In this document: positions 5,944 to 23,917 of the stretch, piece by piece
How positions within the stretch are numbered: the first letter of the stretch is position 1
Layout: each line of letters starts with the position of its first letter
Source of the DNA: Pseudomonadota bacterium
GTDB lineage: Bacteria; Pseudomonadota; Gammaproteobacteria; Burkholderiales; Burkholderiaceae_C
NCBI GenBank assembly: GCA_018241985.1
Contig: JAFECV010000001.1
Span: 1-24,935 of the forward strand
Length of the DNA stretch: 24,935 bases
Reading direction: 5' to 3'
Program-made: the position numbers and the translations under genes
Notes under the pieces: model-generated
The model's input: only the letters and a program-made list of their open reading frames with translations
What the model was told of the DNA's origin: nothing
Databases searched by the model: none

Positions 5944-6456
5944 ATGGATAGCTCCACTCCCATCCCGGCCGCCGCCGCTGCCGGTGCGACGCAGCCCAAG
6001 CCCGAAACGAGCGAATTTCTGTCTTTCCGCGTTGGTGCCGAGGAATACGGCATCGACATACTCAAGGTGCAGGAGATCCGCGGCTACGAGAGGCCCACCC
6101 GTATGGCGAACGTGCCCGAGTTCGTCAAAGGCGTCGTCAACCTGCGCGGCATCATCGTGCCGATCATCGACCTGCGCATCAAGTTCGCGCTCGACTCGGT
6201 GGTCTATGACGATTTCACCGTCGTGATCATCCTCAACGTGTCCGGCCGCGTGCTGGGTATCGTGGTGGACAGCGTGTCCGACGTGACCACGCTGACGCCG
6301 GAGCAGATCAAGCCGGCGCCGGACTTCTCGACGCACGACGACACCAGTCTCGTCATCGGACTGGGCACGCTCGACGAAAGGATGCTGATCCTGATGGACA
6401 TCGAGAAGCTCTTTGCCGCCAACGGACTCGGCCTGTCGACCACCTCCATCCACTGA
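5944..6456 (+). CDS. cheW: Chemotaxis coupling protein CheW
   Basis: CheW bridges chemoreceptors and the CheA kinase in the signalling array. It has 170 residues, with an Ala/Pro-rich N-terminal tail of about 22 residues followed by one CheW domain. Typical signatures are [20 protein letters not shown], the loop [27 protein letters not shown] and a VVDSVSDV strand. It is preceded by a 145-base gap that may hold an internal promoter and is followed 53 bases later by the receptor gene. The Shine-Dalgarno sequence before the ATG is weak (GAGAGA). Confidence 0.96.
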
Positions 6457-6509
6457 ACCTGCGCGCTCGGCCCGACCTCTTCTTTCTTCTCATCCAACAG
6501 GAGATCCAC

Positions 6510-8933
6510 ATGGCCCGCACTGCGACTGGCGTCAACCGCGCCCCCAAGACCCCCGCGAAAGCCAAACCCGCACCCGCCGCGAAGCCGCGCGGCGCAGCCG
6601 AACCCCAGGCTCAGCTGGCCGCGATACGCGGCGCGCTGGCCGTGCTCGAACTGGGCCCCGACCTGACGGTGCTCGACGCCAACGAGAACTTCTGCCGCCT
6701 GCTGGGGTACTCGTTGGAGGAGATCAAGGGCCGTCCGCACAGCATGTTCCTCGAACCCACCCAAGTCGCCAGCGCCGATCATTACCAGTTGTGGGAGAGG
6801 CTGCGCGGCGGCGCCAGCGAGGTCGCCCTGCAGCGCCGCGTGGGCAAGGGAAATACGGAACTGTGGCTCAACGTCGTCTGCGTGCCGGTGCCGGGCGCCG
6901 ACGGTCGGCCGGCCAAGTTCGTCGAGCTGTGCAGCGACGCGAGCCGCGAGCACGCTGCGCTGGAAGAGGTCAGGGCCGAGCTGAAGGTCCGCACCGACAT
7001 CATGAACGTGACCAGCATCGTCTCGGAGGCCGACCTCAAGGGCGACATCGTCTCGTTCAACGACAAGTACGTCGAGATCTCCAGGTACACCCGGCAGGAG
7101 TTGCTCGGCAGCCCGCACAGCATCACGCGCCATCCCGACATGCCGAAGGAAGCCTTCAAGGAGATGTGGTCGACGATCGGCCGCGGCGGCATTTTCCGAG
7201 GCGTGATCAAGAATCGCACCAAGGACGGCAACCCCTACTACGTCGACGCGGTGATCGCCCCCATCCTCGGCAAGAAGGGCAAGCCACGCAAGTACTTGGG
7301 CGTGCGCTACGACATCACGGCCGCCGAGATCGAGCGCCAGAATATGAAGGGCATCCTCGACGCGCTGAGCCGCTCGCAGGCGATCATCGAATTCAAGCTC
7401 GACGGCACCATCCTCACCGCCAACGACAACTTTTGCCGCACCATGGGTTACTCCCTGGACGAACTCCGGGGCAAGCACCACAGCATATTTGTCGAACCGG
7501 CAATCGTGACCAGCCCCGAATACCGCGCGTTCTGGGACAAACTCGGCCGCGGTGAGTTCGACGCGGGCCAGTACAAGCGCCTGGGCAAGGGCGGTCAGGA
7601 GGTCTGGCTGCGCGCCTCCTACAACCCTGTGTGCGACGAGATGGGCCGGCCGTTCAAGGTCGTCAAATGCGCCAGCGACGTGAGCGACGGGGTTCGGACT
7701 TCGCTGGCCATGAAGCAGACCGTCGAGCAGACGCAGCAACTCGTCGCGGCCGCCGTGGGCGGCGACCTCACGGGCCGACTGGACCTGACCGGAAAGGGCG
7801 GAGAGCTGAGGAAGCTCGCCGAGGGCATCAACGCGCTGATGGATACCACCGCCACCGGCATCGACGAGGTGGTTCGCATGCTCGGCGCGCTGGCCGGCGG
7901 CGACCTGACACAGCGCATCAGCAAGGAGTTCCACGGTAGCTTCGGCCGCATGAAGGATGACGCCAACGCGACGGCCGAGAAGCTGACCGAAGCCCTGTCG
8001 CGCATCAACGAGTCGACCGAGACGATCAACACCGCCGCCGCCGAGATCGCCAGCGGCAACGCCGACCTGTCGCAGCGCACCGAGGAGCAGGCCTCCAGCC
8101 TCGAGGAAACCGCTTCCAGCATGGAGCAGCTCACCTCGACGGTGAAGCAGAACGCCGACAATGCGCGCCAGGCCAATCAGCTCGCGGCCACCGCCTCCGA
8201 GGTGGCGCTGAAGGGCGGCCAAGTGGTGTCGCAGGTGGTCACCACGATGTCCTCGATCAACGACAGCTCGAAGAAGATCGTCGACATCATCAGCGTGATC
8301 GACGGCATCGCCTTCCAGACCAACATCCTGGCGCTCAATGCTGCGGTCGAGGCGGCACGTGCGGGCGAGCAGGGGCGCGGCTTCGCGGTGGTGGCCTCCG
8401 AGGTGCGCAACCTGGCACAGCGCAGCGCAGCGGCGGCCAAGGAGATCAAGGCGCTGATCGGCGACTCGGTGGAGAAAGTCGATGCCGGCTCCAAGTTGGT
8501 CGAGGCAGCGGGCAAGACGATGGACGACATTGTTTCCTCGGTCAGGCGCGTGACCGACATCATGGGTGAGATCACTTCCGCCTCGCGGGAGCAGTCGGCC
8601 GGCATCGAGCAGGTTCACCAGGCAATCACGCAGATGGACCAGGTGACGCAGCAGAACGCGGCGCTGGTCGAGGAGGCGGCCGCCGCATCGGAATCGATGC
8701 GCGAGCAGGCCTCCAATCTGCGCGAGGCCGTACACAGCTTCAGGCTGACTGACGGCGCGGCGCCGCCGGCCTGGGACGGCGTCGAGCGCCGCGGCCCGAA
8801 CCGCGCCACGAATGTCTCGCGCATCGCGCCGAGCAAAGTGCCGGCGCGGGTTGCCGCCGGGCCTGCCGTAGCGCGTAGGGCCGAAGCCGCGACCGGCACC
8901 GATGGTCCCGACGACGGCTGGGAGCAGTTCTGA
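6510..8933 (+). CDS. Soluble triple-PAS methyl-accepting chemotaxis protein with Aer-like PAS and tether pentapeptide
   Basis: This 807-residue chemoreceptor has no membrane-spanning segment, so it should be cytoplasmic. After an Ala/Lys/Pro-rich start come three PAS domains. PAS1 (about 40-150) and PAS3 (about 285-395) resemble each other ([18 protein letters not shown] versus [18 protein letters not shown]). PAS2 (about 160-275) has [14 protein letters not shown] and [16 protein letters not shown], typical of the FAD-binding PAS of Aer. A HAMP-like stretch (about 405-500) leads to the coiled-coil signalling domain, with the hairpin tip near 598-620 ([20 protein letters not shown]). Methylation-type EE/QQ helices flank the tip. 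The C terminus, DDGWEQF, resembles the NWETF tether for CheR and CheB. AGGAG precedes the ATG by six bases. Redox or oxygen sensing is inferred from PAS2. Confidence 0.93.
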
Positions 8934-8947
8934 CCGCCCTCGCTGCC

Positions 8948-9610
8948 GTGATCTCGCGGCCGGCTTCGGCCGCCGCGGGCGGCACCGGTCCTGGCGCCGA
9001 TGCAAGGGCGCAACTGCAGCGGCTCAAGGCGGGGTCACGCCGCAGCGGCGAGGCCTCCTTCTTCTGGTATGAGGCGCAGTTCAGGCGCGTGGCCGTCAAG
9101 GTGTTGCCAGGGGAGTACGCGGTGCATGGCGAGGATCTCGTGATCGCCACCGTGCTGGGTTCCTGCATCGCCTGTTGCCTGTGGGACCGCGAGGCGCGCG
9201 TCGGCGGCATGAACCACTTCATGCTACCGGGTGGCGCTGGTGATGGCGCACGCTATGGGGCCTTTGCGATGGAACTGCTGATCAACGAGTTGCTGAAACT
9301 GGGCGCCAGGCGTGGGGCGCTGGAAGCCAAGCTGTTCGGCGGTGGCCGCGTGCTGGCCGGCATGGCCAGCTTCGATGTCGGCGAGCGCAACACGCAATTC
9401 GCCTTCGATTACCTGCGCACCGAGCGCGTCCCGGTCGTCAGCCACGACGTGCTCGATGTGCACCCGCGCAAGCTGGTCTTCCTGCCTCTCACCGGCAAGG
9501 CCCTGGTCAAGCGCCTCGCATCGAGCCGGCTGCTCACACTGGCCGAGCGGGCGCGGGCGGCGGCCACACCGGCCAGCACCGGCGCCGAAGGTTCGGTGGA
9601 ATTGTTCTAG
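8948..9610 (+). CDS. cheD: Chemoreceptor glutamine deamidase CheD
   Basis: CheD deamidates Gln residues on chemoreceptors, and in some species it binds CheY phosphatases. It has 220 residues. The CheD fold begins near 46 ([13 protein letters not shown]), with the catalytic Cys73 in LGSCIA and His90 in GGMNHFMLP, 17 residues apart as in characterised CheD. FGGGRVL and a C-terminal strand about PRKLVFLP follow. The disordered tail ends GSVELF, echoing GSIELF of the small CheZ-like protein. The start is GTG with no clear Shine-Dalgarno sequence. It lies 14 bases after the receptor stop and 8 bases before cheB, so translation is probably coupled. Confidence 0.94.
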
Positions 9611-9618
9611 GCCGTCGC

Positions 9619-10725
9619 ATGAACACCGAGGAGGCGGGAGTGACGCAAGCAACGCGCGTGCTGGTGATCGACGATTCCGCGCTGGTGCGCAGCCTGCTTG
9701 CCGAGATCATCAACCACCAGCCGGACATGGTGTGCGTCGGTGCCGCCGCCGACCCGTTGATCGCCCGCGAGATGATTCGCGCGCTGAACCCGGACGTACT
9801 GACGCTCGATGTCGAGATGCCGCGCATGGACGGCCTCGACTTCCTGTCCAAGCTGATGCGGCTGCGGCCGATGCCGGTCGTGATGGTGTCCACGCTGACC
9901 GAGCGCGGCGCCGAGGCGACGCTGCGCGCTCTCGAACTGGGCGCCGTCGACTTCGTCGCCAAGCCCAGGATAGGCATTGCCGATGGGTTGCAGCGCTTGA
10001 CCGAGGACATTACCGACAGGCTACGCATCGCTGCCAGGGCGCAGGTGAGGAAACCGGCTGCGTACGCACAGGCTGCTGCAGACGCCGGCAGGCCCGGTGG
10101 CGCACCCGCGACCATGGACCGGCTGTCGACCGAGAAGATCGTCTTCATCGGCGCCTCCACCGGCGGCACCGAGGCAACGCGCGAGGTGCTGTGCGCCCTG
10201 CCGCCGTACTTCCCGGCGGTCATGATCACGCAACACATGCCGCCCGGCTTCACCAAGAGCTACGCGGCACGGTTGGATGGACTGTGCCGCATCCGCGTGA
10301 AGGAGGCCGACGACGGCGAACGCGTGCTGCCGGGCCATGCCTACATCGCGCCAGGGGGGCAGCACCTGAGTGTGGCGCGATCGGGCGCCAACTACATCGC
10401 TCGGGTCCAGGCTGGCGAGCCGGTGAATCGCCATATGCCCAGCGTGGAGGTGCTGTTCAAGTCGGCTGCCCGCGCGGTCGGTCCCAATGCGTTGGCGATG
10501 ATGCTCACCGGCATGGGTGCCGACGGCGCGAAGGCGATGCGTGATCTGCGGAATGCAGGCGCCTATTGCGTGGCCCAGGACGAGGCCAGTTGCGTCGTGT
10601 TCGGCATGCCGCGCGAGGCGATCGCCGCCGGCGCGGTTCACGAGGTGCTGCCGCTCGCCGCGATCGCGCCGCATCTGATCGAGCGACTGCGCAGCAGCGC
10701 AGCGGTCTCATTCAATCGCATCTGA
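9619..10725 (+). CDS. cheB: Chemotaxis methylesterase/deamidase CheB
   Basis: CheB removes methyl groups from receptors when phosphorylated by CheA, opposing CheR. It has 368 residues. The N-terminal receiver has D18-D19, phosphoacceptor D64 in [12 protein letters not shown] and K115. A linker leads to the C-terminal methylesterase with its Ser-His-Asp triad: S180 in GASTGGT, H206 in TQHMPPGFT and D302 in GMGADG. It is the last gene of the rightward che block. A spacer of about 100 bases separates it from a convergent gene, with no convincing terminator in it. Confidence 0.96.
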
Positions 10726-10826
10726 GCGACTGGCACCTGGCAGGTTTCCAGGGAGCTTTGACATCGGTCACCCGACCTTCCGGCGGCAGCCGATCTCGCG
10801 ATGGGGGCCAGAGTCGCACACGGGCG

Positions 10827-11282
10827 TCAGTAGTAGACGTTGACGGCGACGGTGTCGGAGTGGTTGTTCGGTGAGACTCGGGCCGGCTTGGCGGACATCA
10901 CCCGGGGCCTGACGGCGATCTCTTGTGCCGTGCCGTTGCCGATTCCGGTCAGGCCGTTGCCGGTGCTTGCGGTCGAGACACCGTTGCTGCCGCGACCCGG
11001 CAGCGTCCCGAGGTTTTCCCGATTTGGACTGCTCACGGACTGCAGCGCGACGTGGTAGGGGGTTTCGTTCGAGCAGGTCACTTGGATCGCGCCGCCGCCG
11101 TCGACCGCCGAGGCAGCATCCATGGCGCCCAGCGAGGCGTTCGAGACCGTGCCCGCCGCCACGGCGCAACTCCGGGTGATCGTCACCATGACCCGGAATT
11201 CCGCCGTGGCAGTACCAGCCATGGCTGCATACACGCTGGCGGTGACGACACAGGCAACGGCCAGGGGCTTGGTGAAAATCAT
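10827..11282 (-). CDS. Secreted spore-coat-U (SCPU) domain protein, orphan
   Basis: This is a 151-residue exported protein. A signal peptide (about 1-27, MIFTKPLAVACVVTASVYAA, cleavage likely after TATA) is followed by an SCPU beta-sandwich. Typical marks are the Cys pair C39/C70, an early TITRSCAVAAG strand, GAIQVTCSNETPYHVAL and the terminal strand SDTVAVNVYY. Such domains form subunits of Csu-like chaperone-usher pili, but no chaperone or usher is encoded nearby, so it is an orphan. It interrupts the chemotaxis/motility block on the opposite strand. Its upstream region has a good sigma-28 motif (see 11363-11389), which hints at co-expression with flagella. Its role is unknown: adhesin, flagellum-associated surface protein or stray pilin are all possible. 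Confidence 0.82.
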   Translation of the reverse strand: MIFTKPLAVACVVTASVYAAMAGTATAEFRVMVTITRSCAVAAGTVSNASLGAMDAASAVDGGGAIQVTCSNETPYHVALQSVSSPNRENLGTLPGRGSNGVSTASTGNGLTGIGNGTAQEIAVRPRVMSAKPARVSPNNHSDTVAVNVYY

Positions 11283-11362
11283 TCGAGGTTCCAGCGAGTT
11301 GCCTTCGACTTGAGGTGGGCGATCGATAGAACTTCGATCGCTTTCTTTCGTCTGCAGGTCTC

Positions 11363-11389
11363 TTTTCGGCGGTTTCCGCCAGATCTTGA
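11363..11389 (-). promoter_or_regulatory. Sigma-28-type flagellar promoter for the SCPU gene
   Basis: Read on the minus strand, TCAA (11389-11386) is followed by 15 bases and then GCCGAAAA (11370-11363). The classical flagellar sigma-28 pattern is TAAA-N15-GCCGATAA, so this matches 3 of 4 and 7 of 8 positions at exact spacing. The start codon lies about 80 bases downstream. The motif sits in the 272-base spacer shared with motA, which otherwise contains only the motA promoter motif. Confidence 0.55.
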
Positions 11390-11460
11390 GTCAGCGGAAC
11401 CGTCGTCGACAGTGGCCGTCATGGAGGCAGAGCGCGATCGCTGCTCCAGTGCATGCAAGT

Positions 11461-11488
11461 TCAAGTCTCGGCGCAAGCCTGCCGATAA
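11461..11488 (+). promoter_or_regulatory. Sigma-28-type flagellar promoter for motAB-cheYZ
   Basis: GCCGATAA at 11481-11488 matches the flagellar sigma-28 -10 element perfectly. TCAAGTCT at 11461-11468 resembles the -35 TAAAGTTT at 6 of 8 positions, with a spacer one base longer than the enteric optimum. The start of motA is 66 bases downstream. Late-class control of motor and cheY/cheZ genes by sigma-28 is common, which supports the assignment. Confidence 0.65.
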
Positions 11489-11554
11489 GGTCTGCATCCG
11501 TGTCGCGGTTCTGCTCGGCCTGCCGCTTCCTGCCGGGTCAACAAAAGAAAAGCA

Positions 11555-12418
11555 ATGTTCGTCATCATCGGTTTCGTCGTCGCGCTGGGCTGCGTTTTCG
11601 GCATGTTCATCGCCCACGGCGGCAACATCGCAGTGGTGCTGCACGCGCTGCCGTTCGAGATGACCACGATCATGGGAGCGGCCATTGGCGCCTTCGTGGC
11701 AACCAATCAGCCCAAGGTGTTGAAAGCGACTGCAGCGGGTCTGGCATCGTGCTTCAAGGGTTCCAAGTACAGCAAGGCGCGCTATCTGGAACTGATGGCA
11801 CTGCTCTACGAGATCCTGCAGAAGGCGCGCAAGGAGGGGTTGCTCTCGATCGAGAAGGACGTGGATCAGCCGCAGGACTCGCCGCTGTTCAAGAAATACC
11901 AGACCGTCGGCAGCGACCACCACGTGATCGAGTTCATTACCGATTACCTGCGCATGATGGTTTCGGGCAATCTCAACGCGCACGAGATCGAAAGCCTGAT
12001 GGACAGTGAAATCGACACCCACCACCACGAGGCCAATGCGCCGGCAGCCGCGCTGCAGCGCCTTGCCGGCGGCCTGCCGGCTTTCGGCATCGTCGCCGCC
12101 GTGCTGGGCGTGGTCAACACCATGGGCTCGGTGGGGCAACCCCCGGCGGTCCTGGGCGCCATGATCGGCTCTGCCCTGGTGGGCACCTTTCTGGGAATTC
12201 TGCTGTCCTACGGCATCTTCGAGCCGTTGGCCGGATTGCTGGAGCAGAAGATCAGCGAAGGCACGAAGGAACTGCAGTGCATCAAGACCACGCTGCTCGC
12301 CTCGATGCAGGGCTATGCACCACAGATCGCGGTCGAGTTTGGCCGCAAGGTGCTGTTTTCGACCGAGCGCCCGAGTTTCAACGAGCTGGAAGATCACGTG
12401 AAGGGCAGGAAGCAATGA
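11555..12418 (+). CDS. motA: Flagellar motor stator protein MotA
   Basis: MotA is the ring-forming subunit of the proton-driven stator in the inner membrane. It has 287 residues. The N-terminal membrane helices lie in FVIIGFVVALGCVFGMFIA and the following hydrophobic stretch. A large cytoplasmic loop has the charged torque-generating region (RYLELMALLYEILQKARKEG). The second helix pair includes LPAFGIVAAVLGVV, with the functional Pro, and FEPLAGLLEQK. The C terminus has the family signature GYAPQIAVEFGRKVLFSTERPSF. It is followed 27 bases later by motB. The Shine-Dalgarno sequence before the ATG is weak (A-rich AAAAGAAAAG). Confidence 0.97.
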   Translation: MFVIIGFVVALGCVFGMFIAHGGNIAVVLHALPFEMTTIMGAAIGAFVATNQPKVLKATAAGLASCFKGSKYSKARYLELMALLYEILQKARKEGLLSIEKDVDQPQDSPLFKKYQTVGSDHHVIEFITDYLRMMVSGNLNAHEIESLMDSEIDTHHHEANAPAAALQRLAGGLPAFGIVAAVLGVVNTMGSVGQPPAVLGAMIGSALVGTFLGILLSYGIFEPLAGLLEQKISEGTKELQCIKTTLLASMQGYAPQIAVEFGRKVLFSTERPSFNELEDHVKGRKQ

Positions 12419-12445
12419 CGGCGGCGCGCAGTCTGGAGGACGATC

Positions 12446-13372
12446 GTGGCCGGTGATGCGAAGAAGCTTCAACCCATCATCGTCAAGCGCATCAAGAAGG
12501 CCGAGCATGCCTATCATGGTGGCGCGTGGAAGATCGCCTATGCCGACTTCGTGACGGCGATGATGGCCTTCTTTCTGCTGATGTGGCTGCTGGGCTCGAC
12601 GACTGAGGGCGATCGCAGGGGCATCCAGGACTACTTCAACAGCCCGCTGCGGGTCAGCATGGCCGGCGGCAGCGGCGCAGGCGATGCCACGTCCATCATC
12701 AAGGGCGGCGGCTCTGATCTGACCAAGGCGTCCGGCCAGGTGAAGCGCGCCGCCAATGCGTCGAAGGGCAGCAAACCCAACGATCCGAATGAAATGCACA
12801 GGCTGCAGGCCGCGGCCGAGGCCGAGCGACTGCGGGCGCTGAAGTCCAAGGTCGAGGTGATGCTGGCAAACGATGCGCGGCTGAAGGATTTCCGCTCGCA
12901 GATCCGGCTGGACATGACACGAGACGGTCTGCGCATACAGATCGTCGACCATCAGCAACGGCCGATGTTCGACAGCGGCTCGGCGGTCGTCAAGCCCTAC
13001 ATGCGCGACCTGCTTCGCGCCATTGGCGGCATGCTTGCCGACGTGCCCAACAAACTGACGCTGGAGGGGCATACCGATGCCCAGGCTTACAGTGGCGGCG
13101 TGCGCGGCTATAGCAACTGGGAGCTATCGGCCGATCGCGCCAACGCTTCACGCCGGGAACTCGTCGCAGGTGGCTTGCACGACGAGAAGGTGCTGCGTGT
13201 GCAGGGGCTGGCTGCCAGCCAGCCCTTCGATTCCAACGATCCGGATGCTCCGGTCAACCGACGCATCAGCATCATCGTGATGAATCGCGATGCGGAGGAG
13301 CGCTTTTTCGACAAGCTGCCGGAGGTCGATGCCGCCTCGAACATCTCAAGTCTTGCGCCGGACCGTCGATAA
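12446..13372 (+). CDS. motB: Flagellar motor stator protein MotB
   Basis: MotB is the peptidoglycan-anchored stator subunit. It has 308 residues. A short cytoplasmic tail with [18 protein letters not shown] precedes a single membrane helix (about 36-53). D34 in YADF is the proton-carrying Asp. A flexible Gly/Ser/Ala-rich plug and linker region follows. The OmpA-like peptidoglycan-binding domain (about 160-290) has [15 protein letters not shown] and [16 protein letters not shown]. The start is GTG, chosen because GGAGGA lies five bases upstream. It ends 43 bases before the second cheY, within the same operon. Confidence 0.96.
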
Positions 13373-13415
13373 AGTCGCTGATTCCGTTCTATTGCCACTT
13401 TGCCAGGTTCTTGCG

Positions 13416-13805
13416 ATGAATGCCGCCGATCTGAGGTTCCTGATCGTCGATGACTTTTCCACGATGCGTCGCATCGTCCGCGGTCTGCTCAAGGAAATGG
13501 GTTGCAACAACGCGGAAGAGGCCGAAGACGGCGCCGCGGCACTCAACATGCTGAAGGCCGGGAAGTTCGATTTCGTCGTCAGCGACATCAACATGCCCAA
13601 CATGAACGGTTTGGAACTGCTCAAGCGGGTGAAGGCCGATACCGATCTGAAGCACCTACCGGTCCTGGTGGTCACCGCCGAGGCGCGCAAGGAGGACATC
13701 GTGCTGGCGGCCCAGTCCGGCGCTGCCGGCTATATCGTCAAGCCTTTCACGAAGGCGACGCTGGAGGAAAAGGTCCAGAAGATCATGCAGAAGATCACCG
13801 CATGA
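13416..13805 (+). CDS. cheY: Motor-type chemotaxis regulator CheY, copy 2
   Basis: This 129-residue receiver has key residues at the same numbers as E. coli CheY: D12-D13, phosphoacceptor D57 ([12 protein letters not shown]), T87, Y106 and K109. The N-terminal [16 protein letters not shown] is the classic motor-binding CheY signature. It is therefore the likely switch regulator that binds FliM. It lies in the motAB operon directly before cheZ. Its TGA stop overlaps a possible ATG of cheZ (ATGA). Confidence 0.97.
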
Positions 13806-13813
13806 GGACCGAC

Positions 13814-14446
13814 ATGAAGAGGGACCAACTCCACGGCATCGGACCCCCGGCACCGGCTCAGGCCTCGCCTGAGATCTTCCAGCAGATCGGCCTCATCACG
13901 CGCCAGCTGCACGACGCACTGCAGCAGCTCGGGGTCATGCCCAGGCTGCAACTGGCAGCCGAGGGTCTTCCCGATGCGCGCAGCCGGCTGAACTACATCG
14001 CCAGCAAGACGGCGGCTGCCGTCGACCGGGTGCTGAACCTTGTCGATGCGGCCAAGGCCGAGCATCGGGAGATGGCCGACGAGACGCGCCGCATGACGCA
14101 GGTCATCGTCGCCGATCCGGTGCGTGCGGTGGCCTCGGGCTCGGTGATGAATTTCATCGGCGACGTGGAGCGGCGCGCCAGTCGCATCGATGCCCACCTT
14201 ACCGACATCATGCTGGCGCAGGACTTCCACGACCTAACCGGCCAGGTGGTCGCCAAGGTCGTGTTGCTGGCCATTGAACTGGAAGACAGCCTCGTCAAGC
14301 TGCTGGTGCAGGGCGCGCCGCCCGAACAGGCGCAAAAGGTGGAAAGCGCCCACCTCGCCGGCCCGGTGATCGACCCCGAGGGCCGCAGCGATGTGGTCAC
14401 CAGCCAGGGCGAGGTCGACGATCTGCTGGCCAGCCTCGGGTTCTGA
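13814..14446 (+). CDS. cheZ: CheY-P phosphatase CheZ
   Basis: CheZ dephosphorylates CheY-P to terminate the motor signal. It has 210 residues, the normal family length. It is mostly long helices forming a hairpin, with the phosphatase signature AQDFHDLTGQVV, including Asp and Gln in DxxxQ spacing. A linker follows, then the C-terminal CheY-docking helix VDDLLASLGF. The ATG at 13814 is preferred because GAGGA lies five bases upstream. An in-frame ATG at 13802 overlaps the cheY stop and would add four residues. A GC-rich inverted repeat immediately follows the stop. Confidence 0.96.
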   Translation: MKRDQLHGIGPPAPAQASPEIFQQIGLITRQLHDALQQLGVMPRLQLAAEGLPDARSRLNYIASKTAAAVDRVLNLVDAAKAEHREMADETRRMTQVIVADPVRAVASGSVMNFIGDVERRASRIDAHLTDIMLAQDFHDLTGQVVAKVVLLAIELEDSLVKLLVQGAPPEQAQKVESAHLAGPVIDPEGRSDVVTSQGEVDDLLASLGF

Positions 14447-14469
14447 ACCGCCCGCGGCTCCGCGGCGGT
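14447..14469 (+). terminator. GC-rich hairpin after cheZ (weak terminator candidate)
   Basis: ACCGC and CGCGG pair with CCGCG and GCGGT, with one unpaired C, directly after the cheZ stop. No T-run follows (GAAAAACTG), so this is at best a weak or Rho-assisted stop, or a simple 3' stabilising hairpin. Confidence 0.25.
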
Positions 14470-14554
14470 GAAAAACTGCCGACTTCCCCTGCTTATCCAC
14501 GGATGCGCCGGCCCTGCGCCAGGAAGAATCACCGGCACAGCGTGATCCCTTTCG

Positions 14555-15592
14555 ATGGCCGACTCTTCCTCTCAGGACAAGAACCTACCCGCGTCGCAGC
14601 GCAAGCAGCGCAAGGCGCGTGAAGAGGGCCAGGTTGTCCGCTCGCGCGACCTCGCGCACTTCGCCGTGATGGCGGCAGGTGGGGGGGCTATCGCTTCGAC
14701 GGCTCCGTGGGTCACGAACTGGCTGAAGGCCGGGCTCGCGGCAGCGCTGCGCTTCGACGCACACACACTGTCGTCCCCCACCAGCATGGGCGAGCGCCTT
14801 GCGGCCGGTGCGGCGCAGCTGCTGTGGATCGTGCTGCCACTCGGACTGCTGATGATCGCCGTGGCCGTTGCCGGCAGTCTGCTCGCCGGTGGCTGGGTGT
14901 GGTCGATCCGCGCCATGGCACCGCAGTTTTCACGGATCAATCCGCTGGCAGGCCTGCCGCGCATGCTGTCGCTGCGCCAGTTCGGTGATGCAGGCAAGAG
15001 TTGCCTGCTTGCGACCGTGCTGCTCGTGATCGGCGCAATCTGTCTTCGATCCAGACTCGGCACCTTCAGCGCCATGCTGGGCGTACCGTTGCCAGCGGCT
15101 TTCGGTGCAGTAGGCCAGGAGTTGGTCGCCGGCGCGAGCCTGATCGTGCTCGCCCTCGGGCTGTTTGCCGCCGTCGACGTGCCGCTGCCCTACACCGCGA
15201 GGTCGCGCCACGGGCGCCTGATGCGCCTGCTGCTCGACGAAGTGGAGCAGATGCCGACGCTGCCGCTCAGCCTGCCGCACCCGGCCGACCCGCGCCTGCA
15301 GGCCATCTGCACGGCGCTCGCGCGCTCACCCGATGACGCGTCGACCGCGAGCGACTGGGCGCGGCGGCTGGGCGTGCACACCAAGACCCTGCACCGCCTG
15401 TTCCTGCGCGAAACCGGCATGAGCTTCGGCCAGTGGCGCCAGCAGGCGCGCCTGCTCGCCGCGCTCGAACAGCTCGCCGGCGGCGCGCGCGTGATCGACG
15501 TGGCGCTGGCGCTCGGCTACAGCAGCCCCACCGCGTTTGCGACGATGTTCAGGCGACAGTTCGGCGTGGCGCCGAGCCGGTTTTTCAGGTGA
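14555..15592 (+). CDS. FlhB(N-terminal)-AraC(C-terminal) in-frame chimera
   Basis: Residues 1 to about 210 are FlhB, the flagellar type III export gate component. The N-terminal KAREEGQVVRSRDLAH motif is followed by four membrane helices (about 36-58, 84-113, 149-164, 186-207) and PQFSRINPLAGLPRMLS. The cytoplasmic FlhB domain, with its NPTH autocleavage site, should come next. Instead the frame continues, from about 15179-15195, into an AraC-family regulator: SRHGRLMRLLLDEVEQMP, then a complete double helix-turn-helix domain (about 250-345) ending GYSSPTAFATMFRRQFGVAPSRFFR. The AraC cupin sensor domain is missing. Both parents are thus broken at one junction. The product could not support flagellar export. 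It might act as a membrane-anchored DNA-binding protein, or the join may be a deletion scar or an assembly chimera. No clear ribosome-binding site precedes the ATG. Confidence 0.85.
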   Translation: MADSSSQDKNLPASQRKQRKAREEGQVVRSRDLAHFAVMAAGGGAIASTAPWVTNWLKAGLAAALRFDAHTLSSPTSMGERLAAGAAQLLWIVLPLGLLMIAVAVAGSLLAGGWVWSIRAMAPQFSRINPLAGLPRMLSLRQFGDAGKSCLLATVLLVIGAICLRSRLGTFSAMLGVPLPAAFGAVGQELVAGASLIVLALGLFAAVDVPLPYTARSRHGRLMRLLLDEVEQMPTLPLSLPHPADPRLQAICTALARSPDDASTASDWARRLGVHTKTLHRLFLRETGMSFGQWRQQARLLAALEQLAGGARVIDVALALGYSSPTAFATMFRRQFGVAPSRFFR

Positions 15593-15665: not shown

Positions 15666-15686
15666 ACCGGCGTAGCCAAGTCCCCG

Positions 15687-17642
15687 TCACACCAGCAGCG
15701 CATTCACCCGCTTCACATACGCCGCCGGATCGTCCGGCAGCCCGCCCTCGGCGAGCAGCGCCTGATCGAACAGGATATGCGCGAGGTCGTCGAAGCGGTC
15801 TGACACATCGCCGTCGGCGGCGAGGCGCTTGACCAGCGGGTGCTCGGGGTTGACTTCGAGCACGGGCCGCGTGGTCGGCACGGTCTGGCCGGCTTGCTTG
15901 AGCATGCGCGCGAGCTGCGTGCTCATGCCGTGCTCCTGCACCACGAGGCAGGCCGGGCTGTCGACGAGGCGGCTGGTCACGCGCACGTCCTCGGCCTTGT
16001 CCTTCAGCGCTTCCTTCAGCTTCGCGAGCACCGGCTTGAAGGTTTCGGCCGCTTCTTCGGCCGCCTTCTTCTCGGCCTCGTCCTGCAGCTTGCCGAGGTC
16101 CACCGCGCCCTTCGCGACCGACTGCAGCGGCGTGCCGTCGAACGCGTGCAGGTGCGACAGCGCCCATTCGTCGACGCGGTCGGTCATCAGCAGCACCTCG
16201 ATGCCCTTCTTTCGGAAGACTTCGAGCTGCGGGCTGTTCCTGGCAGCGGCCAGCGTGTCGGCGGTGATGTAGTAGATCGCCTCCTGGCCCTCCTTCATCC
16301 GCGCCTTGTAGTCGGCCAGGCTCACCACAGCGGTGTCGCTGCTGGTCGACGCGTAGCGCAGCAGTTTGGCGAGCCGCTCGCGGTTCGCGAAGTCCTCGCC
16401 CAGGCCTTCCTTCAGCACTGCGCCGAATTCGGCGTAGAAGCGGTCGTACTTGCCGGCTTCCTGCTTCGCCTCGTCGCTCGCGTCGTCGGCGGGCTTGTCG
16501 TTCTGCGCCAGCTCTTCGAGCAGGCCGAGCACGCGCCGGGTGTTGCCGTCGCGGATCGCGCGCACGTCGCGGCTTTCCTGCAGCAGCTCGCGGCTCACGT
16601 TCAGCGGCAGGTCGCCCGAGTCGACCACGCCGCGCACGAAGCGCAGGTAGAGCGGCAGCAGCGCCTCGGCGTCGTCCATGATGAACACGCGCTTCACGTA
16701 CAGCTTCAGTCCGGTCGGCTTGTCGCGGTTGTACAGGTCCATCGGCGCCTTCGCCGGGATGTAGAGCAGCTGCGTGTACTCGGTCGCGCCCTCGACCCGG
16801 TTGTGCGTCCAGGCGAGCGGCGGCTCGCTGTCGTGGCTGAGCTGCTTGTAGAACTCGGCGTACTGCTCGGGCGTGATGTCCTTCTTGGCGCGCGTCCACA
16901 GCGCGCCGCCCTGGTTCACCGCCTCCCACTGGTCGGTGGTCACCATCTCGCCGCCCTTGCCGTCCTCGCCCTCCTTCCACTCCTCCTTCTGCATCAGGAT
17001 CGGCAGGCTGACGTGGTCCGAGTACTTGGCGATGATGCTGCGGATGCGCCAGCCGCCGAGGAACTCGTCAGCGTCCTCGCGCAGGTGCAGGATCACGCTG
17101 GTGCCGCGCTCGGGCCGGGTGAGGGTTTCGACCTCGAACGCGTCGCCGCCGCTGGCGCCGCCGTCGCTGCTCCAGCGCACGCCCTGCTCGGGCGCGAGGC
17201 CCGCGCGACGCGACTCGACCGTGATCCGGTCGGCGACGATGAAGCCGGAATAGAAACCGACGCCGAACTGGCCGATCAGCTGGCCCTGCTCGGACGCCTG
17301 CGCCTTCTGGTCGCCATCCAGCCGGCTCACGAAGTCGCGCGTGCCGCTCTTGGCGATCGTGCCCAGGTGGTCGATCGCCTCCTGCTCGCTCATGCCGATG
17401 CCGTTGTCGGTGATGGTGAGCGTGCGCGCCGCCTTGTCGATGCCGACGCGCACCTCGAGGGTCGGCGCATCGGCCAGCAGCGAAGGATCGGCGAGCGCCT
17501 CGAAGCGCAGCTTGTCGCAGGCGTCGGAGGCGTTCGAGATCAGCTCGCGCAGGAAGATCTCCTTGTTCGAATACAGCGAGTGGGTGACGAGGTGCAGCAG
17601 GCGCGCGACTTCGGCCTGGAACGACAGGGTTTGTTTACTCAT
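15687..17642 (-). CDS. htpG: Molecular chaperone HtpG (bacterial Hsp90)
   Basis: HtpG is an ATP-dependent cytosolic chaperone working with DnaK in client remodelling. It has 651 residues, the usual length being about 630-650. The N-terminal GHKL ATPase has [20 protein letters not shown] (31-50), ITDNGIGM (77-84) and [15 protein letters not shown]. The middle domain has [13 protein letters not shown] and [11 protein letters not shown]. The C-terminal dimerisation domain ends [12 protein letters not shown]. The ATG at 17642 is chosen because the family begins just before [15 protein letters not shown]. An in-frame extension of 49 codons upstream has no similarity and crosses the promoter-hairpin region. 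No heat-shock sigma-32 promoter pattern was found upstream by eye. Confidence 0.97.
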
Positions 17643-17712
17643 GGCAGCTATGGTGCGATGCGGAATGCAATAAAAAGAAATAGGTAAGCGCTGGGTGCGC
17701 AGGCAAAACGAA

Positions 17713-17739
17713 GCGCCCCGCGCAAGGGGAGCGGGGCGC
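17713..17739 (-). repeat. GC-rich perfect hairpin upstream of htpG
   Basis: GCGCCCCGC and GCGGGGCGC form a perfect 9-bp stem with a 9-base loop, about 70 bases upstream of the htpG start. On the minus strand it is followed by TTCGTTTTG, so it looks like an intrinsic terminator pointing toward htpG. It could insulate htpG from upstream transcription, or act in its leader. Confidence 0.45.
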
Positions 17740-17917
17740 CGTTCGCGCACCGCCCGGACGCCAGATCGGGGCGGGCGCTCGCGTTTCAAGCGGGATTATC
17801 CCAGCCTCACGGCGCCCGGCCCCGGCGCAGCGCGCGTCACTTAGACTGTGCGGTTTGCCGACCCAGCAAACCTGCGCCGGCCAGCAACGACGAACCACCG
17901 AAAGAGGGCGAAACAGC

Positions 17918-18847
17918 ATGAGCAGCATTGAGCAGATCAACTTTCACGGCCGGGTCGCGATCGTCACCGGCGCCGGCGGCGGCCTGGGGCGCGAGCACGC
18001 GCTGGCGCTGGCGCGCCGCGGCGCACGGGTGCTGGTGAACGACCTCGGCGGCTCGGTGCATGGCGACGGCTCGTCGACATCGGCGGCGCAGGCGGTGGTC
18101 GACGAAATCCGCGCGGCCGGCGGCGAAGCGGTCGCGAACGGTGCGTCCGTCACCGACTTCGCGGCAGCGCAGGCGATGGTGCGGCAGGCGGTCGACACCT
18201 GGGGCCGCGTCGACGTGCTGGTCAACAACGCCGGCATCCTGCGCGACAAGACCTTCGCGAAGATGGACCTGGTCGACTTTCGGCAGGTCGTGGACGTGCA
18301 CCTGATGGGCGCGGTGCATTGCACCAAGGCCGCATGGCCGCTGATGCTGGCGCAGAACTACGGCCGCGTGGTGTTCACCACCTCGTCCACCGGGCTGTAC
18401 GGCAACTTCGGCCAGACCAACTACGGCGCGGCCAAGCTCGCGCTGGTCGGCCTGATGCAGACGCTCGCGCTCGAAGGCGAGAAGCACGGCATCCGCGTCA
18501 ACTGCCTCGCGCCGACCGCCGCGACCCGGATGACGCAGGACCCGTTCCCCGCCGACATGCTGCACGCGTTCGGCCCGCGCGCGGTGACGCCGGCGATGCT
18601 GGTGCTGGCGTCCGAACAGGCACCGACCCGCACCGTGCTGTGCGCCGGCGCCGGCGGCTTCGAGGCCGCGCACCTGACGCTGACCCAGGGGCTGTACCTC
18701 GGGCTCGGCGACGACGCGCCCGAGCGGCTGCTCGAGCGCCTCGCCGAAGTGACCGACCGCGACGGCGAGCAGGTGCCCGGCAACGGCAACGCGCAGGGCG
18801 CGAACGAGATGGCGCTCGCCGCTGCGGCGCGCAAGGCGGGTGCCTGA
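17918..18847 (+). CDS. SDR-family 3-hydroxyacyl-CoA dehydrogenase-like oxidoreductase
   Basis: This NAD(P)-dependent short-chain dehydrogenase has 309 residues. It has the cofactor motif GAGGGLG (18-24), the following LVNDLGGSVHGDGSS typical of the hydroxyacyl-CoA dehydrogenase module of peroxisomal multifunctional enzyme type 2, and NNAG (103-106). The catalytic Ser is at about 156-157, with Y169 and K173 in NYGAAK. The extra C-terminal region (about 215-309) also fits that subfamily. It probably oxidises 3-hydroxyacyl-CoAs, but the substrate is inferred from the subfamily resemblance. The ATG at 17918 has an AGAGGG Shine-Dalgarno sequence. An in-frame ATG at 17855 lacks support. The gene stands alone, diverging from htpG and converging with the pseudouridine synthase gene. 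Confidence 0.88.
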   Translation: MSSIEQINFHGRVAIVTGAGGGLGREHALALARRGARVLVNDLGGSVHGDGSSTSAAQAVVDEIRAAGGEAVANGASVTDFAAAQAMVRQAVDTWGRVDVLVNNAGILRDKTFAKMDLVDFRQVVDVHLMGAVHCTKAAWPLMLAQNYGRVVFTTSSTGLYGNFGQTNYGAAKLALVGLMQTLALEGEKHGIRVNCLAPTAATRMTQDPFPADMLHAFGPRAVTPAMLVLASEQAPTRTVLCAGAGGFEAAHLTLTQGLYLGLGDDAPERLLERLAEVTDRDGEQVPGNGNAQGANEMALAAAARKAGA

Positions 18848-18877
18848 GCGCTGCTCGAATTCGGCACAGGACTATCG

Positions 18878-18900
18878 CCCTCGCCCCTCTGGGGAGAGGG
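18878..18900. terminator. Likely bidirectional terminator between SDR and pseudouridine synthase genes
   Basis: CCCTC-g-CCCC pairs with GGGG-a-GAGGG across a 3-base loop, giving a strong stem with one mismatch between two convergent genes. No T-run is present. The sequence style resembles short dispersed palindromes in Proteobacteria, so it could also be a REP-like element. Confidence 0.4.
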
Positions 18901-18938
18901 AGCAAATACCGAGGCGCTGCGGCAGGCGCGCGCCCGGA

Positions 18939-19724
18939 TCAGAACCGTTCTTGCGGTCCCAGATAGCGCCACTGCCCCGGCGGCAGCGCCCCCAGCCGCA
19001 CGCCGCCGATGCGGACGCGCTTGAGGCCGACGACGGCCAGGCCGACCTGCTCGCACATGCGCCGGATCTGGCGCTTGCGGCCTTCGCGCAGCACGAAGCG
19101 CAACTGCTCGGGGTTCTGCCATTCGACCTGCGCGGGCTTGAGCGCGCGGCCATCCAGGTGAAGGCCGTGGCGCAGGCGCGTGAGCGCCTCTGGCGGCAGC
19201 GCGGCCTGCACGTTCTGTGCGACCGCGGCGCCGGCGGCGACGTAGTGCACGCGCACCAGGTATTCCTTGTCGATGTCCGAGTCCTCGCCGATCAGTTGGC
19301 GCGCGATGCGGCCGTCCTGCGTCAGCACCAGCAGGCCGGTCGAGTCGATGTCGAGGCGCCCGGCCGGCGCCAGCCCGCGCAGTTGCGACGGCGCGAAGCG
19401 CATCGCGCTCCGGTCCTCGCGCCAGCGCGTGCGCGGGCCCACGAGCGTGACCGCCGGCCGGTGGCCGTCCTCGGCCTGGCCGCTGACGTAGCCGACCGGC
19501 TTGTTCAAAAGCACCGTGACCTGCGACGCCTGGCTGCGGCGCGCGCTGGGGTCGACCTCGATGCGGTCGTCGGCGCGCACCTGCAGGCCCACCGAAGCGA
19601 CCGCGCCGTTGACACGCACCCAGCCGCTCTCGATCCACGCGTCCGCCTCGCGGCGCGAGCACAGGCCGAGTTCGGCGAGCCGCTTGTTGAGCCGCGTGCC
19701 GTCGGAGCGGGTCGCGTCACTCAC
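18939..19724 (-). CDS. 23S rRNA pseudouridine synthase, RsuA/RluB/RluF family
   Basis: This enzyme isomerises a uridine to pseudouridine in ribosomal RNA. It has 261 residues from the chosen start. An N-terminal S4 RNA-binding domain (RLNKRLAELGLCSRREADAW, then VRVNGAVAS) is followed by the synthase domain. The catalytic motif is AGRLDIDSTGLLVLTQDG, with the active Asp in RLD, and REGRKRQIRRMCEQVGLAV is the second conserved block. The overall style is RluF-like, but the target position cannot be set from sequence, so no symbol is given. The start is uncertain. The GTG at 19724 fits the usual short lead before the S4 domain. A GTG at 19808 would add 28 atypical residues, and the AT-rich stretch between the two looks promoter-like. 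Confidence 0.9.
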   Translation of the reverse strand: MSDATRSDGTRLNKRLAELGLCSRREADAWIESGWVRVNGAVASVGLQVRADDRIEVDPSARRSQASQVTVLLNKPVGYVSGQAEDGHRPAVTLVGPRTRWREDRSAMRFAPSQLRGLAPAGRLDIDSTGLLVLTQDGRIARQLIGEDSDIDKEYLVRVHYVAAGAAVAQNVQAALPPEALTRLRHGLHLDGRALKPAQVEWQNPEQLRFVLREGRKRQIRRMCEQVGLAVVGLKRVRIGGVRLGALPPGQWRYLGPQERF

Positions 19725-19862
19725 GTCGTTTGCTACTCTATTGATAGCATACAGCGAAGACTGTGCCTTCGCTTGCGGCCGATTTGATGCTGAAATTCGC
19801 TGCAGCACAGCCGCGCCCGCTCATGCGCGATGGAAGGCAGCGAGGCCGACCAGCGACCCCGC

Positions 19863-20186
19863 CTACACGCCCCAGACGATTTCCTTGCCGGCCTCGGCGC
19901 ATTCCTGCAGCATGTGGATGAACGGCACCGCGCGCTGGCGCAGCGACACCGCATCCTGCGGAGGCGTGGTGTCGTCGGACGGGCCGACGCGCTCCGCCAC
20001 CAGATGGCGGTCCGTCTCGGCCTTCGTGATGGCTGCGTTCAACGCGGCGATCGCCGGCGCCATCTGCTCCACCAGGATGATGCCGCGCGGCCCCGGCGTC
20101 TTGCCGATGATCTCGAGCATGCGGCGACCATCGGGTTCGAGCATGATCAGGTCGCCGGTCGCTCTGGATTTGAACTTGTAGATCAT
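19863..20186 (-). CDS. DUF1840 family protein
   Basis: This small soluble protein of 107 residues matches the DUF1840 pattern: MIYKFKSRATGDLIMLEPDG at the start, LEIIGKTPGPRGII in the middle and a helical C-terminal part ending AGKEIVWGV. The function is unknown. Its ATG overlaps the TGA of cfa (ATGA, 20186-20183), so it is translated from the same message. The pairing suggests a link to membrane lipid state, but nothing in the sequence shows a reaction. There is no signal peptide or membrane helix. Confidence 0.85.
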   Translation of the reverse strand: MIYKFKSRATGDLIMLEPDGRRMLEIIGKTPGPRGIILVEQMAPAIAALNAAITKAETDRHLVAERVGPSDDTTPPQDAVSLRQRAVPFIHMLQECAEAGKEIVWGV

Positions 20187-21451
20187 GGCTGGCGGTAGAT
20201 ATACGCTCGGTTGAACGGGAAGTCCGATTGTGCACCTTTCGGGCCCGCGCCCACGTAGCCGGCATCGGGGTGCGCGACCAGGATCTGATGCAGCGCGACC
20301 CAGCCCTGTTCGAACCCCATCGCGCAGCCCGCCAGGTACAGCCGGTAGGCGCGCAGCACCCGTTCCGCCTGCTCGGCGCTGCCGCCACGCAGCAGCACCT
20401 TGTGCGCTTCGTCCAGATGCCGCTCCAGCCCGTCGGACCAGGCCCACAGCGTGCGCGCATAGTGGGGGCGCAGGTTTTCGGTGTCGACCATCTCGAGGCC
20501 GGCGAGCGCCGCGACCCGCAGCACGTGGCTGATGTGGAACAGCTCGCCGCCGGGGAAGATGTACTTGCCGATGAAGTCGCCCATGCCGGCGCCGAGCTGG
20601 TCGTAGTCGACGCCGCCGGCGGTGATGCCATGGTTCATCGCCAGGCCGCCGGGCTTGAGCAGGCGCCGCACCTTCTCGAAATAGGACGGCAGATTCGCGT
20701 AGCCCACGTGCTCGAACATGCCGACCGACGCGATCCGGTCGAACGGGCGCGATTCGTCGAGGTCGCGGTAGTCGCGCAACTCGATGCGCACCCGGCCCTG
20801 CAGGCCCTTCTGTTCGATCAGGCGCTGCACGTGCGCCCGCTGGTTCTTCGACAGCGTGATCCCGGTCGCGTCGACGCCGTAGTGCTCCGCGGCCCACAGC
20901 AGCAGCCCGCCCCAGCCGGCACCGATATCGAGGAACCGGTCGCCGGGCTTGAGCATCAGCTTGCGGCAGATGTGGTCGAGCTTGGCCTCCTGGGCCTCGG
21001 CCAGCGTCATGTCCGCGTCGCGGAAGTAGGCGCAGGAGTACACGCGCAGCGGATCGAGCCACAGCGCGTAGAAGTCGTCGCTGACGTCGTAGTGGTACTG
21101 GATCTGGCGCGCGTCGCGCTCGCGCGAGTGCGCCCGGCGCGAGCGCAGGCGGTGGATCAGGTCGCGCGGCCAGCGGTTGTCGTGCTCGACCGGGCTGCGC
21201 TGCAGCAGCCGCGCGGCCACGGCCATCAGATCGCGCATGCTGCCTTCGATCTGGACCCTGTTCTCGACATAGGCCTCGGCCAGCGTGCCGATCTTGCCGG
21301 TGGCAAAGGTAGCGACCGTCGACCAGCGGTCGAACGCCAGCGTGACCAGCGATTGCCCGGGGCCTACCGATTGTCCGCCCGGCAGGCGCAGCGATACCGG
21401 AACCGGCAGCCCGGCCAGCTGCGATTCGACCTTGTCGTACAAGCTATGCAT
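20183..21451 (-). CDS. cfa: Cyclopropane-fatty-acyl-phospholipid synthase
   Basis: This enzyme transfers a methylene group from SAM to cis double bonds of membrane phospholipid acyl chains, usually in stationary phase or under acid stress. It has 422 residues. The N-terminal lipid-binding region (about 1-115) is followed by the catalytic methyltransferase: YHYDVSDDFYALWLD, C140 in VYSCAYF, the SAM loop LDIGAGWGGLLLW (174-186), SVGMFEHVGY with the bicarbonate-binding Glu, and KYIFPGGELF. Later, RPHYARTLWAW supplies the active-site Tyr. The length is slightly above E. coli Cfa. Its stop overlaps the start of the DUF1840 gene by four bases. The upstream 80 bases include an AT-rich run next to the ATG. 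Confidence 0.94.
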   Translation of the reverse strand: MHSLYDKVESQLAGLPVPVSLRLPGGQSVGPGQSLVTLAFDRWSTVATFATGKIGTLAEAYVENRVQIEGSMRDLMAVAARLLQRSPVEHDNRWPRDLIHRLRSRRAHSRERDARQIQYHYDVSDDFYALWLDPLRVYSCAYFRDADMTLAEAQEAKLDHICRKLMLKPGDRFLDIGAGWGGLLLWAAEHYGVDATGITLSKNQRAHVQRLIEQKGLQGRVRIELRDYRDLDESRPFDRIASVGMFEHVGYANLPSYFEKVRRLLKPGGLAMNHGITAGGVDYDQLGAGMGDFIGKYIFPGGELFHISHVLRVAALAGLEMVDTENLRPHYARTLWAWSDGLERHLDEAHKVLLRGGSAEQAERVLRAYRLYLAGCAMGFEQGWVALHQILVAHPDAGYVGAGPKGAQSDFPFNRAYIYRQP

Positions 21452-21531
21452 GCGTTTATTTTGTCATTTTGTTGCAAACGGCGGCGGCAGCGCGAGCCGA
21501 TGCCGTTCACAACCGTAGACAACCGCAGGCA

Positions 21532-22140
21532 TCAGGCGCGGTTCGCGAGCAACGGATCGACGACGCGCCGCAGCCGCTCGGCCGTCATCTCGGGCGGATC
21601 GTCGCTCCAGCCGTCGTGAGCCAACCGCCCGGCGCGATCGATCACGAAGCTGACCGGAAGCCGCCAGATACGGCCGTAGACCGGCACCCACGGGCTCGGC
21701 AGCAGGCCGACCGGAAAACTCAGGCTTGCAGCGACCGCACGCACCTGGTTCAGGCTGTCGGCGCCGTCCAGGCTGAACCCGAGCACCTGCAGCCCATCCG
21801 CCGCATGGCGCGCGGCGTATGCCGACAGCAGCGGCAGTTCCTCGCGGCACGGCGCGCACCAAGTCGCCCAGAAGGTCGCGATCACGACCCGGCCGCGCAG
21901 GTCGCCGGTGGCGATGTTGCGGCCATCCAGCGTGTGCAGCACCAGTGGCGGCGCCGGCTCGCCGACCCGCAACCCGTTCGCCCAGGCGCGGGAGGCGATG
22001 CTGGACAGCCCGACCGCCGCGCATGCTGCGCCAGCACCGCGCAGCCAGCCGCGCCGGCGCAGCGCCGGCAGCGCCGCGCCGGCGCCCGCATCGGCGTCCA
22101 TATCCACGCGCTGCGGGCTGCGGGACGACCGAATGCCCAT
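21532..22140 (-). CDS. TlpA-like thioredoxin with twin-arginine-type signal
   Basis: This is an exported thiol-disulfide oxidoreductase of 202 residues. The N-terminal targeting region contains RRRGWL (28-33) followed by a hydrophobic stretch ending SRAWA, resembling a twin-arginine signal. The thioredoxin fold begins GLRVGEPAPPLVL. The redox motif WCAPC is at 94-98 (C95, C98), and the cis-Pro loop is RLPVSFVIDRAG. It probably acts in the periplasm as a reductant, as in TlpA/ResA proteins. The ATG at 22140 is chosen because AGGAG lies six bases upstream. An ATG at 22176 would overlap the preceding gene by 11 bases and has no such site. It is the last gene of a probable operon with the Cys-rich barrel and DUF2946 genes. 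Confidence 0.88.
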   Translation of the reverse strand: MGIRSSRSPQRVDMDADAGAGAALPALRRRGWLRGAGAACAAVGLSSIASRAWANGLRVGEPAPPLVLHTLDGRNIATGDLRGRVVIATFWATWCAPCREELPLLSAYAARHAADGLQVLGFSLDGADSLNQVRAVAASLSFPVGLLPSPWVPVYGRIWRLPVSFVIDRAGRLAHDGWSDDPPEMTAERLRRVVDPLLANRA

Positions 22141-22165
22141 GTCTGACTCCTGTAGGCGCTGAAAC

Positions 22166-23212
22166 TCAGAACGCATGGGTCACCCCGATCGATGCGGCCC
22201 AGCGCGGGAAGAGCTGATAGCCCTCGAGCCGGCTGTACACCGGCACCTGCAGGAACGCGTACAGCTGCGTCTGCGGCGCGATCGCCATCGTCACGCCCGG
22301 GCTCAAGTACGCTGCGGTGCCGGCGGTATTGCGCGTGTCGGCGAGCGCGCCCTGGTCCGCCGCCTTGTGCGTGATGTTGACCTGCAACTGCGGCACGAAG
22401 TTCGGGTCGGCCTCGTAACGCAGCCCGAAGCTCACGGTCGCCAGATTGCCGGGACGGTAGTCCGCGCCCGGCTGATCGAGCCGCTGGCTGACCGCGGCCT
22501 GGAACTGGCCGTTCACGAACGCGTCGAAATTCTGGCTGACCGCTTGGTAGTAGTAGGCGCCGACGATCAGGTCGGTGCTGCCGGTGCCGGCCTGCAGGCT
22601 GGTGTCGAGCAGATTGCCGGGCGCGGGAAGCGCCGCGTTCGGGCCGCTGCCGAACGCAGCCGGGTTGCGCCCCACGCTGCCGGTGCCCGCCGCGTTCGGT
22701 CCGCCGTAATTGCCGGTCGGAAGCTTCACGCCGAGCTGGAAACCGAGGTTGTGCGTGGGCAGCAGACCCTGGTAGCTCGCGATCAACTTGACGTCGCCCA
22801 GTGCGGAGACGGTGGCGCTGCTGATGTCGTCCGGCGTGAGCGGGTTGCCCGAGGACCCGTAGGTCGTATGGCTGCGATCGATGTACGGCACCATGAGCCG
22901 GAAATTCCAGTCCGCGCTGGGCGCGTAGCTCAGCCCCAGCGTGACGTAGCGATTGATGGTGCCATTTTCCACTTCCTGGTCGCCGCCGGCATCGTTGATC
23001 GCGGCGACCTGCGCGGGCGAAATGGCATGCGTTCCGGAGCGCAGCTGGTTCTGGTTGATGTAGTCGTACTGCAGGCTCACGAGCCAGCCGGTGCCGGACG
23101 AATAGCCCATCGCGGCATCGGAGGACAGCGCGCAGCCGCAGGTGGCGCAAGCCCATGCGCCGGCGGGCAAGGCGGCCAGCAGCGAGACAAGGACAAAGGA
23201 ATTCTTTTTCAT
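22166..23212 (-). CDS. Putative outer-membrane beta-barrel with N-terminal CxxCxC motif
   Basis: This is an exported protein of 348 residues. A signal peptide (MKKNSFVLVSLLAALPAGAWA) is followed at once by CATCGCALSSDAAMGYSSG, which gives a CxxCxC cluster at or near the mature N terminus. The rest alternates amphipathic strands rich in Gly, Tyr and Asn (WLVSLQYDYINQNQLRSG, YVTLGLSYAPSADWNFRLMV, LGFQLGVKLPTGNYGG). It ends in a phenylalanine (GVTHAF), as expected of a porin-like barrel. It resembles the loosely named transporter family of outer-membrane barrels. The Cys cluster could bind metal or be kept reduced by the TlpA encoded next. A lipobox is not evident. The substrate is unknown. Confidence 0.8.
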   Translation of the reverse strand: MKKNSFVLVSLLAALPAGAWACATCGCALSSDAAMGYSSGTGWLVSLQYDYINQNQLRSGTHAISPAQVAAINDAGGDQEVENGTINRYVTLGLSYAPSADWNFRLMVPYIDRSHTTYGSSGNPLTPDDISSATVSALGDVKLIASYQGLLPTHNLGFQLGVKLPTGNYGGPNAAGTGSVGRNPAAFGSGPNAALPAPGNLLDTSLQAGTGSTDLIVGAYYYQAVSQNFDAFVNGQFQAAVSQRLDQPGADYRPGNLATVSFGLRYEADPNFVPQLQVNITHKAADQGALADTRNTAGTAAYLSPGVTMAIAPQTQLYAFLQVPVYSRLEGYQLFPRWAASIGVTHAF

Positions 23213-23339
23213 GGGTATCTCTCGGTTCAGGAGCGCGGGATCGCGCCCGCGCAAGGCAATGGGAGAAGCCGCCACGCGGGCGGCCGAGCCGGACCTCCCG
23301 GGCTCGCGCCGGGCGCAGCCGAGAGGCCTGTCGTGCGTG

Positions 23340-23729
23340 TCAGGAGAATGCCGGCGGCGCGCGCGGGTTCTGCGCCACCCAGCCCGAGGCCGGGCGCGGC
23401 GAGAGCGGCACCGCGCCAAGCCACGGCTGCAGGTCCTGCGGGCGCGGGGCCATCGGGACGGTCGCGGGCGCGGGCGCCCAGCCATGGTGGCACAGCACGC
23501 ACAGCGGGCAATCGCCGCCGGATCCGCTGTGCTGCGGTGCGCTCGGCCTATCGGGCCCATTGCCCGCATGGGCCGATCCGTCAGGGTGCGCGGTGCAGAT
23601 CTGCTGCCAGGGCAGGCCGGTCGGCAGCGCCGGGCTCAGGAGCCGGAACGCGGTCGGCGCCAGCGTCAGCCACGCGATAGCCGCGACCGCGAGCCAGCGG
23701 GCCAGCGGATGCGTCATGCGTCTGAACAT
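23340..23729 (-). CDS. DUF2946-like small Cys/His-rich protein
   Basis: This 129-residue protein starts with a membrane or signal segment (WLAVAAIAWLTLAPTAFRLL). It continues with a His/Gly/Pro-rich region and the motif GDCPLCVLCHHG, then a Pro-rich tail. The arrangement, an N-terminal helix followed by a late H...CPLC box, fits DUF2946. From memory, that family is often found near copper-responsive outer-membrane receptors, so metal handling is a guess. The ATG at 23729 sits only six bases after a TACAAT element, so the message would be nearly leaderless. An ATG at 23717 is the alternative start. It is probably the first gene of an operon with the Cys-rich barrel (127-base gap) and TlpA. Confidence 0.7.
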   Translation of the reverse strand: MFRRMTHPLARWLAVAAIAWLTLAPTAFRLLSPALPTGLPWQQICTAHPDGSAHAGNGPDRPSAPQHSGSGGDCPLCVLCHHGWAPAPATVPMAPRPQDLQPWLGAVPLSPRPASGWVAQNPRAPPAFS

Positions 23730-23735
23730 GCGGCG

Positions 23736-23741: not shown

Positions 23742-23788
23742 GGATCAGAGGGACGGTCAGCGGGCGAGCGGAGCGTCAACGAGAAGCA

Positions 23789-23814: not shown

Positions 23815-23840
23815 GGGAGGCAGCATCAGCTACCGAAAAC

Positions 23841-23917
<77 letters not shown>

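Follow-up and report, generated by a model that had tools for sequence, protein, structure and literature searches.

An open reading frame joining FlhB and AraC parts

We analysed a stretch of 24,935 nucleotides (the window). It makes up all of contig C111 in a draft genome that totals 3.13 Mb, is split into 820 contigs and is rated 89.86% complete and 1.12% contaminated. The number of contigs suggests that the draft is a metagenome bin. Positions 14555–15592 on the forward strand form an uninterrupted frame of 345 amino acids, in which residues 1–211 of FlhB lead into the C-terminal half of an AraC regulator, including its complete DNA-binding domain. Pfam searches located Bac_export_2 (FlhB, PF01312) at amino acids 7–215 (profile positions 1–203 of 335, E = 3.6e-39) and HTH_18 at amino acids 268–345 (profile positions 1–79 of 80, E = 2.5e-24). 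The open frame and the two domains bear out the single FlhB-AraC frame that a preliminary description had reported from the sequence, and the gene content that it gave for either side of the ORF agrees with the best NCBIfam matches. In the left block, CheB, MotA, MotB and CheY scored above the curated cut-off, and CheA, CheR, CheW, MCP and CheZ scored below it. At the right end, rpoA is cut off by the end of the contig. The features are as follows.

1..15166: left block with cheA, cheR, cheW, MCP, cheB, motA, motB, cheY, cheZ and the start of flhB (best NCBIfam matches; DNA affinities)
14555..15166, + strand: 5′ part of flhB, residues 1–204 (PF01312; identity to the intact FlhB P0003; GC3 0.79)
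15167..15188, + strand: putative 22-base overlap of the two genes, made up of the codons for AAVDVPL and one further base, where the mis-join probably lies (AAVDVPL in intact P0003 and P0005)
15188..15592, + strand: 3′ part of araC, linker and complete HTH DNA-binding domain (HTH_18; identity to the intact AraC P0005; GC3 0.94)
15684..24935: right block with htpG, SDR, pseudouridine synthase, cyclopropane-fatty-acid-synthase-like, thioredoxin-like, one gene without a match, L17 and rpoA (identity to genome G001; NCBIfam)

Intact FlhB and AraC proteins and the putative overlap at the switch

A protein homologue search with the ORF yielded at least 617 homologues among 7999 scored candidates. 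The preliminary description had proposed looking for the same fusion in relatives; according to precomputed Pfam assignments, the two domains occurred together in 0 of the 119 other entries among the best 120 of the 617 homologues, the one exception being P0002, the window's own prediction. The best other matches were P0003, an intact FlhB of 386 amino acids, and, for the AraC part, P0005, an intact cupin-AraC protein of 268 amino acids. FlhB residues 1–211 were identical to those of P0003 (211/211), with L211 as the last common residue and the first mismatch at 212. From A205 on, the AraC part was identical to P0005 at 135 of 141 positions, and the residue just before A205 differed.

The peptide AAVDVPL is present in both P0003 and P0005, and the switch therefore lies within codons 205–211 (window positions 15167–15187). 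Because FlhB continues with Q and AraC with P, whose codons both start with C, the overlap can be extended by one base. We infer that the sequence common to both genes at the switch can reach about 22 bases (15167–15188). The join reported earlier is thus confirmed, but it is positioned slightly further left than the interval of about 15179–15195 originally given. Its location at the membrane/cytoplasm border of FlhB follows from the fact that both genes encode AAVDVPL there.

The 22-base word at 15167–15188 has one occurrence in the window. DNA of the AraC parent was sought in 80 loci of named genomes, with flanks of up to 6 kb, and 11 family-member loci with short flanks; the best match to the overlap agreed at 18 of the 22 bases. 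In none of these 91 loci did htpG adjoin araC, so they did not reveal the original surroundings of araC. Under a model of independent bases at 65% and 69% GC, chance alone should give two genomes of 3.5 and 4 Mb about 61 shared placements of 21-mers, about 17 of 22-mers and 0.0002 of 31-mers. Since some 17 common 22-mers are expected in this way, overlaps of such a length are nothing unusual between unrelated genomes, and one of them could misdirect an assembly graph at small k. The microhomology suggested for the junction would extend to as many as 22 bases, but it is likely to be an assembly overlap, and recombination is not supported.

Genomic affinities of the two sides

The right block matched G001, a same-genus genome assembled in a single contig, with DNA identities of 87.8% over 15684–19752 and 86.7% over 19863–24935. 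Judged by this identity, it belongs to the draft's genus; the homologues of its cyclopropane synthase bear Burkholderiaceae-type names, such as Rhodoferax, Caenimonas and Ramlibacter. Between the two matches (19753–19862), G001 exceeds the window by about 12 kb, a difference that could reflect a true deletion or insertion, or else a further mis-join. The araC stretch at 15200–15683 falls outside the G001 match. A search of three same-genus genomes, G001, G002 and G004, found no close relative of P0005 (E ≤ 1e-60); such a relative is present in 23 of 299 genomes sampled from the family, one of them the draft. The araC part could therefore belong to the accessory DNA of the right-hand species, or it may come from a third source; its origin leaves the reading of the flhB-araC join unchanged. 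As a separate observation, the tip of another contig of the draft (G000:C399, 9906 bases) carries 113 bases, at 9792–9904, that are 93% identical to the window's htpG at 16153–16265. That contig showed no other similarity to the window and may be a further case of a chimeric tip in this draft.

The left block (1–15180) had its top DNA matches, at 71–78%, in other genera of the family. With seven first-look candidates scored per genome, matches in the six same-genus genomes were weak at most: the best E-values were 1.8e-7 (G001), 3.2e-8 (G002), 9.5e-47 (G003), 4.9e-6 (G004) and 9.6e-5 (G005), and G006 gave no match. A family search in which all candidates were scored detected FlhB in none of the six other genus members. 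These affinities point to a flagellated organism outside the draft's genus as the probable source of the left block. Positions 1–15180 and 15684–24935 accordingly match different genomes, the araC part lying outside the match.

The preliminary description had proposed searching the genome for intact flhB and flhA and for the missing N-terminal half of AraC. FlhB gave one match, ending at profile position 203, which is the incomplete copy of the ORF itself; no intact flhB was found. Matches to P0005 never began before its residue 115, and the missing N-terminal half of AraC was not found. FlhA was represented by profile positions 516–655 of 657 alone (the last ~140 residues), at the very tip of C115, and not by an intact gene. 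FliG and FliP had no match in the draft. Given that the draft is about 90% complete, missing genes count as no more than moderate evidence.

C115 is a separate contig of 4827 bases, on which the end of FlhA is followed by flhF and fliA. It is the expected continuation of cheZ-flhB, the intervening gap being about 2.2 kb by the positions in G013. The assembly of the flagellated organism itself apparently stops within flhB-flhA, a place at which it could readily be extended wrongly. Gene order alone, unsupported by composition, suggests that C115 and the left block come from one organism: the tetranucleotide correlations of C115 were 0.46 with the left block and 0.45 with the right, close to neither. 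The same-genus genome G003, which is 6% contaminated and lacks an FlhB match, contains a 66% match to the fliA part of C115 (G003:C247:23177-23813).

Composition differed between the two sides. Within the ORF, GC3 was 0.79 in the flhB part (161/204 codons) versus 0.94 in the araC part (126/134; Fisher p = 9e-5), the latter value being equal to that of htpG (0.94). Over the genes chosen for comparison, GC3 was 0.852 on the left and 0.903 on the right (p = 3e-9), with overlapping single-gene ranges of 0.79–0.89 and 0.84–0.94, respectively. Overall GC was 65% in the left block, 68–70% in the right block and 64–65% in the stretches of G001 compared. Because the GC3 ranges overlap and the GC of G001 is nearer to that of the left block, the two sides could not be assigned from composition alone. 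We also considered tetranucleotide profiles as deciding evidence. Of 20 other draft contigs, 17 were compared (the three under 2 kb were excluded); 13 were closer to the right block, three to the left and one was tied. This is the expected direction, yet the profiles are too noisy, and they were set aside.

Origin of the fusion and comparison with known systems

The two sides of the join differ in affinity, and both proteins are known in intact form, each with the switch peptide. Taken together, the sequence evidence argues strongly, short of proof, that the FlhB-AraC ORF is an assembly artefact and that its product is very probably not present in any cell. Sequence of a flagellated bacterium running into flhB would have been joined to sequence of another bacterium starting inside araC, at up to 22 bases common to both genes and encoding AAVDVPL in the same frame in both. 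We infer both the base identity of the true parents over this overlap and the joining by the assembler at this site. A contig-joining artefact, one of three options raised in the preliminary description, fits the differing affinities and the likely nature of the microhomology as an assembly overlap. Preservation of the frame across the join, at about one chance in three, was counted against it.

A real rearrangement appears very improbable. The right-hand organism would have gained a flagellar fragment by horizontal transfer, and microhomology recombination inside araC would have created a joint gene without flagellar function. The open frame agrees with such an event, and the ~22-base overlap would suit microhomology recombination too, but FlhB was detected in none of the six other genus members, FliG and FliP have no match in the draft, and the continuation of the flagellar genes begins at the very end of another, short contig. 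Moreover, the join is absent, the window's own entry aside, from the best 120 of the 617 homologues, and the FlhB part is unchanged from intact FlhB. The proposal that a flagellar export gate was lost by rearrangement is not supported.

Even less credible is the proposed membrane-tethered transcription factor, in which FlhB membrane helices would anchor the AraC DNA-binding domain: it could draw on the uninterrupted frame and the complete HTH_18 domain in it, but the architecture is missing from the 119 other entries mentioned above, both halves have hardly changed relative to intact proteins that occur separately, and the affinities of the two sides lie with different genomes. A narrow literature search, which is no proof of absence, found nothing on an FlhB-AraC fusion with membrane-bound transcription. 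A true fusion, with a flagellar fragment transferred into araC and the regulator anchored in the membrane by the export-gate helices of FlhB, would be an unusual membrane-anchored regulator, and we regard it as highly unlikely; most likely, the FlhB-AraC fusion is an artefact and not a new protein. An overlap that arises by chance and spans roughly one k-mer can thus yield, in an assembly, a fusion protein that is plausible in its frame and its domain border. The flagellar and chemotaxis genes of the draft (window 1–15166) are probably not attributable to its species.

Compared with FlhB of the flagellar export gate (PF01312), the ORF has the membrane part, identical over residues 1–211, but lacks the cytoplasmic domain with the NPTH motif that P0003 has; NPTH, the autocleavage motif of the FlhB cytoplasmic domain, is absent from the ORF, whose sequence past residue 211 is that of AraC. 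Compared with AraC-family regulators with a cupin N-domain, it has the linker and the full HTH_18 DNA-binding domain, but not the cupin N-terminal domain present in P0005. DNA-binding domains anchored by membrane helices are known from regulators of the ToxR/CadC type. Inter-genome chimeric contigs of metagenome assemblies differ from the present case in that the join of the ORF keeps the reading frame and falls at a domain border, but they resemble it in the abrupt change of affinity, here at a putative short common sequence, within a fragmented draft.
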